Part shown: piece by piece, positions 46,310 through 55,068 of the stretch
Layout: every line of letters starts with the position of its first letter
How positions within the stretch are numbered: position 1 is the first letter of the stretch
NCBI GenBank assembly: GCA_903925205.1
Contig: CAIYEN010000141.1
Coordinates: 1 to 55,084 of the forward strand
Reading direction: 5' to 3'
Length of the DNA: 55,084 nucleotides
DNA from: an uncultured Opitutia bacterium
GTDB lineage: Bacteria; Verrucomicrobiota; Verrucomicrobiia; Opitutales; UBA953
Translations under genes and position numbers: made by a program
Notes under the pieces: model-generated
Database searches by the model: none
What the model was told of the DNA's origin: nothing
The model's input: only the letters and a program-made list of their open reading frames with translations

Positions 46310-46557
46310 CATGGTGACACGGGGACAAGGGGTTCTGCGGCTCTGCCGCGCCCACTTTCCGGCCCCCCTTTTCGCTCCCCTTTCACTCTGCCTTGGGTAG
46401 GGGCACGATTCATCGTGCACTCCCTTCATGGAGGGCGCGGCGAAGCCACGCCCCTACCCACTTCCGACACGCCTAGGTTGGCACGCAGTGCCAACCCTAC
46501 CTTCCCCCTGGCCAACCATACTCTTTTCCACCAGTCCCCTCGCGGCCTACGGCCGCG
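46310..46557 (+). repeat. Composite palindromic repeat A
   Basis: The 276-nt convergent gap between rnhB and the reverse cytochrome gene is filled by palindromic modules. In order: a CATGGTGACA / GGGACAAGGGGTT entry sequence (46311-46333), GCGGC-TCT-GCCGC (46337-46349), a three-hairpin unit with outer stem GGGTAGGGGC/GCCCCTACCC (46395-46404 and 46450-46459), a perfect 9-bp stem GGTTGGCAC with loop GCA (46476-46496), and CGCGGCC-TAC-GGCCGCG (46541-46557) abutting the next stop codon. Related copies lie at 50758 and 54721. Confidence 0.9.
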
Positions 46558-46558
46558 C

Positions 46559-49178: not shown

Positions 49179-50720
49179 TTACTTATCCTGCTGCTTCTTA
49201 TTGCCGGTTTTCTTGACCAAAACCACGGGGACATCGTTGGTGAGGTCCGGACCCGGGGTACTCCGGCCACGGGCGACCAAGGCTTGGAGGGCGGCCTTCA
49301 TGCTCGTGACCCGTTCGGGGTGCTGGGCCGCGAGGTTGGTTTTTTCGCCGGGATCCGCGGCTAAATCGTAGAGCTGGAACTCCGGCAGGCCCTTCTCTTC
49401 CTTGGAACCGGGCTTGGGATTGCTCCAACCACCAGAGCCCGCGCAGAGCGCCAACTTCCACTGACCATCGCGGATCGCAAAACTGCCGTTGATGGATTGG
49501 CTCACGATGGACTGACGGAGGGGGCCCTCGCGGCCAAGCAAGGCGGGCAAAAAGGACACGCTATCTTCGCCGGCCCCCGCGGGCACGGGCACGCCGAGCG
49601 CATCGGCGAACGTGGCGAGGAAATCAATCTGGCCAATGAGTTGCGGGTTCACGCTCCCCGGCTTCACCTTGCCAGGCCAACGGACAATGAACGGCACGCG
49701 GTGGCCGCCCTCAAAGATATCCGCCTTATGTCCGCGGTACAGATAGCTGGGCTCGTGGCCCTTCGCTTGCAGTTCATCGATTTTAGCCGCGGGGGAACAA
49801 CCATTATCTGCCGTGAAGACGATCAGCGTATTCTCACGTAAACCTAACTGCTCGAGTTTGGCCAAGAGCCGACCGACATCCGCGTCGACCTGCCGCACGA
49901 AATCGGCGTAGGGATTAAGGCCGCTGGAACCCTTGAATTCATTGGTCGGAACGATGGGCGTGTGCGGGGCATTCAGCGGTAGATAAAGAAAGAAGGGCTT
50001 CGGCGAGTCGGCCTGCTTCTGTGCCGTGACGTAGGCGATGGCTTGGTCAATCACTCCCGGTAGGACGTCAATGGCCTCGAACTTCGGGCCCGCCGGACCA
50101 GTCCGAAGCCACGTCTTGGTCGCCGAGGGAATCTCCGTCGTCCGCCGATCTTTAATCCAAACAAACGGCGGCATGTCGAGTGAAGCACTGATGCCATAGA
50201 ATTGGTCAAAGCCGTGGTCGAGTGGGCCGTCCTTGATATCGGCGGCGTAGTTGACTTCCTGGCCGACCTTAGCGCCAGCGCCATCAAAGACTCCTTTATC
50301 GTCGGCGACACCGCCGGCCTTGAGTGCGAACGACATCCCCAAGTGCCACTTACCGAAGCAAGCCGTGCCGTAGCCTTGCTGCTTAAGGAACCCTGCGACG
50401 GTCAGGCGATCTTTCGCAATCAGCGGAGCGGAATAGCCACCCAGCACACCACTCTGCAGGCGGGTGCGCCAGTGGTACCGTCCGGTTAACAAGCTATAGC
50501 GGGAAGGCGTACAGACCCCCGACGTGGTATGCCCATCGGTGAAACGCATTCCCTCCGCGGCCAAACGGTCGAGGTGCGGGGTCGGGATCTTCCCCTTCGG
50601 GTTATAAGCGGAGACATCGCCGATGCCTTGGTCATCGGCTAAAATCACAATGATATTAGGTCGTTCGGCGGCCGACAGTGCCCAGGTGGCGAACAGGGCA
50701 AGGAGCGTGGGGAAGCGCAT
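49179..50720 (-). CDS. Secreted arylsulfatase-family sulfatase
   Basis: A 513-residue sulfatase (alkaline phosphatase superfamily). Signal peptide [18 protein letters not shown], then [16 protein letters not shown] with metal-binding Asp29/Asp30, and the formylglycine motif CTPSR with Cys70 inside [15 protein letters not shown]. Later parts are [22 protein letters not shown], and [20 protein letters not shown], all family motifs. Such enzymes remove sulfate esters from algal or host polysaccharides in the periplasm. Cys70 must be converted to formylglycine by a maturase that is not in the window. ATG at 50720 gives the signal peptide; longer frames do not. The cytochrome-like gene follows 55 nt downstream. 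Confidence 0.94.
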
Positions 50721-50757
50721 GGAGAGAAGTAAAACGATGGGAAGTGAAGATGCAAGG

Positions 50758-50957
50758 CGCGGCCTACGGCCGCGAGGGGACTGGCACTCTGTATCGGGTA
50801 GGGTTGGCACTGCGTGCCAACCTGGCCTGCCTCTCTTCCGACTCGTCCGCCCCCTAGGTCAGCACGCAGTGCTAACCCTACCTCGAGGCGGGCGGCGCAG
50901 CCACGCCCCTACCTGTTTTGGCATTTACCTTTGCACAGGCCGTAGGCCGATTTGCAC
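50758..50957 (+). repeat. Composite palindromic repeat B
   Basis: Fills the first two thirds of the 337-nt divergent gap between the sulfatase and kdgD. Modules: CGCGGCC-TAC-GGCCGCG (50758-50774) followed by AGGGGACTGG, the inverse of the arrangement in copy A; a perfect stem GGTTGGCAC with loop TGC (50802-50822); a one-mismatch relative GGTCAGCAC/GTGCTAACC with loop GCA (50857-50877); and a 65-nt segment (50893-50957) that recurs at 54948-55012 with two differences. Being upstream of kdgD it may affect expression of the glucarate operon. Confidence 0.9.
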
Positions 50958-51057
50958 CTTTTCACTTTTCCACCCCTGCCCTCCGTCCTCCGTACTCTTC
51001 CTATTGCCTCCCCTCTCCCGCCCGACTACTCCTCCCCTTCTCCTCTCGCCCGTCGCC
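50958..51057 (+). promoter_or_regulatory. Long pyrimidine-rich leader of the glucarate operon
   Basis: About 100 nt consisting almost entirely of C and T on the coding strand, running up to the kdgD ATG with no Shine-Dalgarno sequence and no clear -10 box. It looks like an untranslated leader suited to ribosomal protein S1-assisted initiation. The promoter must lie within or before it, possibly inside repeat B. Confidence 0.5.
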
Positions 51058-54720: not shown

Positions 54721-55068
54721 ACGTGGGCATGGTGACAGGGTGACAAGGGGTTGGGCCGAAGAAGATTACAGAATACGGAGTACAGATTACGGAGCTGGTG
54801 AGGGGATAAATTGATAAGGGGTTGGGCGGCGGCTCTGCCGCGCCCACTTTCCGCCCCCTTTCGCTCCCCTTTCACCCTGCCTTGGGTAACGTCGGCCTGC
54901 ATCGAGGTAGGGGCACGATTTATCGTGCACTCCCCACTAGGAGGGCGCGGCGCAGCCACGCCCCTACCTGTTTTGGTATTTACCTTTGCACAGGCAGTAG
55001 GCCGATTTGCACTTTTGCACCCCCTGGCCATCCAGTCCCATTGTCCCCTCGCGGCCTAATGGGCCGCG
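54721..55068 (+). repeat. Composite palindromic repeat C
   Basis: The last 473 nt after gudD contain no gene. Modules: a CATGGTGACA / GACAAGGGGTT entry sequence (54729-54752), short tandem-like TTACAGAATACGGAG and TACAGATTACGGAG units (54766-54794), GCGGC-TCT-GCCGC (54830-54842), a three-hairpin unit with outer stem GGTAGGGGC/GCCCCTACC (54906-54914 and 54960-54968), the 65-nt segment shared with copy B (54948-55012), and CGCGGCC-TAATG-GGCCGCG (55050-55068). The window ends in AAAAAAGCCCC, possibly half of another terminator. Confidence 0.9.

Follow-up and report, generated by a model that had tools for sequence, protein, structure and literature searches.

The hairpin-rich unit that recurs in this window (the whole analysed stretch, 55,084 nucleotides from an uncultured Opitutia bacterium) is almost certainly a REP doublet, an arrangement also called BIME or REPIN and, in the classification of GTAG repeats, an "HH dimer", most likely copied around by a RAYT encoded in the same genome. 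Direct support comes from the anatomy of the unit, its copy number, its GTAG foot, the pairing within each REP, a cognate RAYT flanked by members of the family, co-variation between RAYT and REP, and an orthologous intergenic region that is altered in near relatives. We regard these doublets as a family that is new but belongs to a well-known kind of element (REP/BIME/REPIN with RAYT), so that a pattern that was striking in the raw sequence would be accounted for by a known mobile-hairpin system.

Anatomy of the repeat unit

The two copies reported in the first-pass annotation were confirmed, with copy A at 46395–46459 and copy C at 54906–54968, both intergenic and alignable without gaps at 90% identity over 63 nt. 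It had also been claimed that the loops change while the paired bases are kept, and this held: the copies differ at 6 of the 63 positions (unit positions 16, 30, 31, 33, 34 and 48), every one of them unpaired and in a loop as originally drawn. The chance that all six would fall in loops, calculated post hoc, is 7e-6 when 11 loop bases are counted or 2e-4 when 17 unpaired bases are counted. The copies are partly non-independent: over about 135–160 nt, their upstream flanks are 77% identical. Folded as single-stranded DNA, A and C were both more stable than all 200 dinucleotide shuffles (z = −3.9 and −3.2); the MFE fold of copy A departs from the three-hairpin shape of the annotation, and that of copy C is near it.

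Each unit is laid out as GTAG, a 9-bp hairpin with a 2–3 nt loop, a spacer of 9–15 nt, and a second GTAG hairpin on the opposite strand. For copy A, the left REP (46397..46420, + strand) is GTAG followed by GGGCACGAT-TC-ATCGTGCAC with one G.A mismatch at pair 2, the 12-nt spacer (46421..46432) is TCCCTTCATGGA, with a variable middle and TCC/GGA ends, and the right REP (46433..46457, − strand) is GTAG followed by GGGCGTGGC-TTC-GCCGCGCCC with a T.G wobble at pair 6. The corresponding parts of copy C are GTAG plus GGGCACGAT-TT-ATCGTGCAC (54907..54930, + strand), the 12-nt spacer TCCCCACTAGGA (54931..54942) and GTAG plus GGGCGTGGC-TGC-GCCGCGCCC (54943..54967, − strand). The inner stems proposed earlier are present, with two flaws: the left stem, GGGCACGAT/ATCGTGCAC, has the G.A mismatch near its base, and the right stem shows a C.A mismatch on the + strand, which is what the T.G wobble of the − strand becomes when read on the annotated strand.

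Further REPs lie in the window. A right-REP remnant of the same family, its left partner lost, is found at 50892..50912 (− strand), where 74 nt match the right half of copy C and its downstream flank at 95%. A second GTAG family is represented by a REP at 50798..50822 (+ strand, GTAGGGTTGGCAC-TGC-GTGCCAACC), which forms a GTAG-outside doublet across a 34-nt gap with its partner at 50857..50881 (− strand), and by a single REP just past copy A (46476..46500, − strand).

The source genome (G000) carries 14 units with intact arms, and all 14 consist of two inverted REPs with GTAG outside and a right end of CTAC; in each, an AAGGC-, ACGAT-, AGGAT- or GCGAT-type half is joined to a GTGG-type half. 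Among neighbouring REPs, the inverted "+−" orientation was the most frequent (37/77). In the protein-chosen loci, with each hairpin counted on two strands, perfect hairpins of at least 9 bp have GTAG directly 5' of them in 78 of about 86 and in 43 of about 48 cases, and in no case do they have the reversed foot, GATG. Two features of the GTAG superfamily of REPs were found, namely a GTAG that, on one strand, immediately precedes a palindrome and, for the left REP, a palindrome that is kept although its sequence changes.

Several other sequences accompany the REPs. A recurrent intergenic sequence, ACCTTTGCACAGGC.GTAGGCCGATTTGCACC, adjoins REPs at 50914–50965 and 54969–55020 of the window and also at loci L132 and L133. 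The palindromic sequence CTCGCGGCCTACGGCCGCGC, which has no GTAG tag, occurs as two inverted copies, at 46531–46558 and 50757–50784. Of 28 doublets of the family, 8 have an extra hairpin, GTTCG..CGAAC, no more than 40 nt from the left-REP end, and 1 has it that close to the other end (L173, about 1470–1490 and 2085–2105; L052, 112–130; other REPINs); in the RNase HII loci, GAAC ranks second in frequency among hairpin feet. Separately, the gene at 49179–50810 (− strand) encodes a sulfatase, and as a query it matched 37–71 places in most of the related genomes searched (about 2 Mb each), a large sulfatase expansion.

Pairing within and across the two halves

Pairing was first considered in 71 doublets of the genus, which are among the matches listed for the arm pattern in the source and related genomes and for which the arms were required for selection. 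Compensatory pairing, which the first-pass annotation had proposed as a check, is present inside the left REP: across 30 distinct REPs, 247 of 270 cells were paired, compared with 203 on average and 223 at most in 1000 re-dealt sets, a control that leaves relatedness in, such that the count is supportive and carries no probability. The right REP varies too little to carry much weight, its observed pairing being reached in 8 of 1000 re-dealt sets. Of the 71 doublets, 37 have the G.A mismatch at pair 2 of the left REP and 63 have the T.G wobble at pair 6 of the right one; the first loop base is almost always T. Stem positions changing without compensation at a loop-like rate were not what we found.

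As the arms were required when these 71 doublets were picked, they are unable to test the outer stem, and the protein-chosen loci were used instead, giving 31 distinct GTAG-outside doublets of many families from RAYT or RNase HII loci and from the window. Pairing across the halves, that is, in the outer stem, was 0.55–0.68 at six of nine positions, versus 0.87–1.0 at all nine positions within the REPs; the REP finder requires near-complete internal pairing, so the within-REP values are partly set by selection and the across-half values are not. The halves differ at 81 outer-stem positions, of which 72 on the left and 70 on the right are still paired in their own REP. The three-hairpin unit enclosed by an outer stem, as originally annotated, is thus not the conserved structure. 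An outer-stem cruciform was likewise rejected as the selected unit, with pairing kept within REPs and broken across the halves. Since within-REP pairing is kept and across-half pairing is lost, the REP hairpin is the unit; an outer stem is seen in the doublet because both REPs start GTAGGGGC, and it arises only when two REPs begin alike. The CTCC/GGAG middle stem does pair in most spacers (20–25 of 26 at its three positions), but it covaries only weakly, and combinations such as C.A and C.C go uncompensated.

A RAYT-like protein and the turnover of doublets

A single protein of the source genome matches Y1_Tnp (Y1/IS200-type transposase), a 150-aa protein encoded at C127:143-592. It matches NCBIfam NF047646 (REP-associated tyrosine transposase) with E=2e-20 and 73.1 bits, short of the curated cut-off of 80, and Pfam PF01797 with 22.3 bits, under the curated cut-off of 23, and it aligns with PDB 4er8 (titled TnpArep; E=5e-4). 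An HVH motif (PDHVH), Y123 and NPxR are aligned and conserved with its relatives, giving it the HUH motif and the catalytic Tyr. Considering the significant E-values, the motifs and the flanking REPs, together with the sub-cut-off scores, we class it as RAYT-like rather than as a member of the curated family.

The gene is flanked by inverted REPs of the copy A/C family, as expected for a cognate RAYT, with doublets or single REPs 34 bp downstream and, on the upstream side, at distances of 72 and 118 bp. Its nearest relative, a RAYT from a sister species (G041, 52% identical), is bordered on each side by full doublets of this family, and 32 of 37 RAYTs of related genomes are flanked on both sides by REPs no more than 500 bp away. 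RAYT identity is correlated with REP arm identity (r = 0.62, matched by 0 of 2000 permutations, with species relatedness still in the comparison). At this locus (L052, G000:C127), segments that contain the flanking doublets are duplicated on each side of the RAYT gene at 93–95% (1–74/793–867 and 46–132/708–795).

The 14 units, with arms GTAGGGG...CCCCTAC, are accompanied by partial copies and by single REPs in a fragmented MAG of 2.47 Mb and 282 contigs, in which the reversed arm pattern had 0 matches. REPs usually number more than 100 per genome, and 14 full doublets is below that; numerous copies are at contig ends (C192:1, C178:1, C258:1 and the ends of C75, C98 and C248), which probably makes the count an underestimate. 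The arm pattern is carried by 44 of 55 genomes of the genus. Four of these (G006, G038, G040 and G043) have 17–23 arm-pattern doublets each, and no close RAYT was detected in them, so the REPs are not invariably accompanied by a RAYT; this is either true loss or the result of assembly gaps, which REP-flanked genes would favour. It is conceivable, if doubtful, that the doublet is built from two fixed REPs that are not equivalent, the left tolerating a mismatch and the right having the T.G wobble, that one RAYT handles them as different ends, left and right, and that the doublet outlasts the loss of this RAYT in sister species.

The orthologous site 3' of RNase HII differs between genomes: G050 has no doublet, G006 has remnants only, G043 has a doublet in the opposite orientation with other flanks, and G013 has a diverged doublet. 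These changes are compatible with a mobile or fast-changing element, and some of these genomes differ in gene order beyond the site. In the window, the unit lies between convergent genes (RNase HII on the + strand and a cytochrome c/DUF7133 gene on the − strand), a setting that would suit a structured regulatory RNA or terminator, that is, a three-hairpin transcript element acting on the adjacent genes, as would the tolerance of the right REP for T.G wobbles. We nevertheless consider this highly improbable, as no Rfam family reached its gathering score (only weak matches to unrelated eukaryotic and viral families), a promoter/terminator scan found no such site, conservation does not follow the three-hairpin fold, and doublets flank RAYT genes and turn over at one locus.

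A conventional MITE of a DDE transposase, with the outer arms GGTAGGGG/CCCCTACC as terminal inverted repeats, would also be short, dispersed, palindromic at its ends and, in the window, intergenic. Such an origin is extremely unlikely, however, because the arms run on as hairpins inside each half rather than pairing across as TIRs, the GTAG foot is common to many unrelated hairpin families in the genus, REPs exist singly, and the adjoining transposase is of the HUH type. That the copies only belong to larger duplicated intergenic stretches, and that their stems agree by chance between two copies, would fit the upstream flank common to A and C and the 74 nt shared by copy C and the 50892 remnant, but is scarcely credible given 14 occurrences in the source genome and a genus-wide set that contradicts it, with 30 distinct left REPs from many genomes and covariation above all 1000 re-dealt sets.

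Proposed mechanism and known systems

In the REP/RAYT explanation, the RAYT (TnpA_REP, an HUH tyrosine nuclease) most likely recognises GTAG plus the hairpin in single-stranded DNA. It would then presumably cut beside the hairpin and move or copy the doublet, perhaps by transposition and perhaps by gene-conversion-like spread. A change in one arm would survive when the opposite arm changes too, and loop and spacer bases would drift. The original suggestion of copying that relies on the secondary structure of single-stranded DNA was largely right, as it agrees with this explanation and with the left-REP covariation. The system, with many coexisting REP families that each have their own RAYT, is hereby extended to a genus of uncultured Opitutae with 55 or more species, which should be a good natural data set on RAYT–REP co-evolution.

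Earlier work has described REP doublets that show compensatory changes and have cognate RAYTs (PMC3116915, Bertels and Rainey, 2011; PMC2817692), and also RAYT recognition of GTAG and a single-strand hairpin (PMC8266576). Like the REPIN/BIME (PMC3116915), the present unit is an inverted REP pair with a short variable spacer, hairpins in single-stranded DNA, compensatory changes and a family-specific RAYT nearby; unlike it, the spacer is shorter (9–15 nt), the two REPs are dissimilar and the copies are fewer. GTAG-tagged palindromic repeats, including GTAG-outside dimers, are described from Verrucomicrobia among others (Opitutus terrae; PMC3733652), and the HH dimers of that description share with our doublets the GTAG foot, a 6–9 bp stem, a 2–3 nt loop (TY-type), GTAG outside and a verrucomicrobial host; the comparison covers the families as described in words (24 listed, including GTAG families of Opitutus terrae). 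The C127 protein, putative in its activity, is distant in sequence from the known RAYT/TnpA_REP proteins and just under the curated cut-offs, but as with those (PMC2817692, PMC8266576; PDB 4er8) its small HUH-Tyr gene lies between inverted cognate REPs, and RAYT and REP co-vary.
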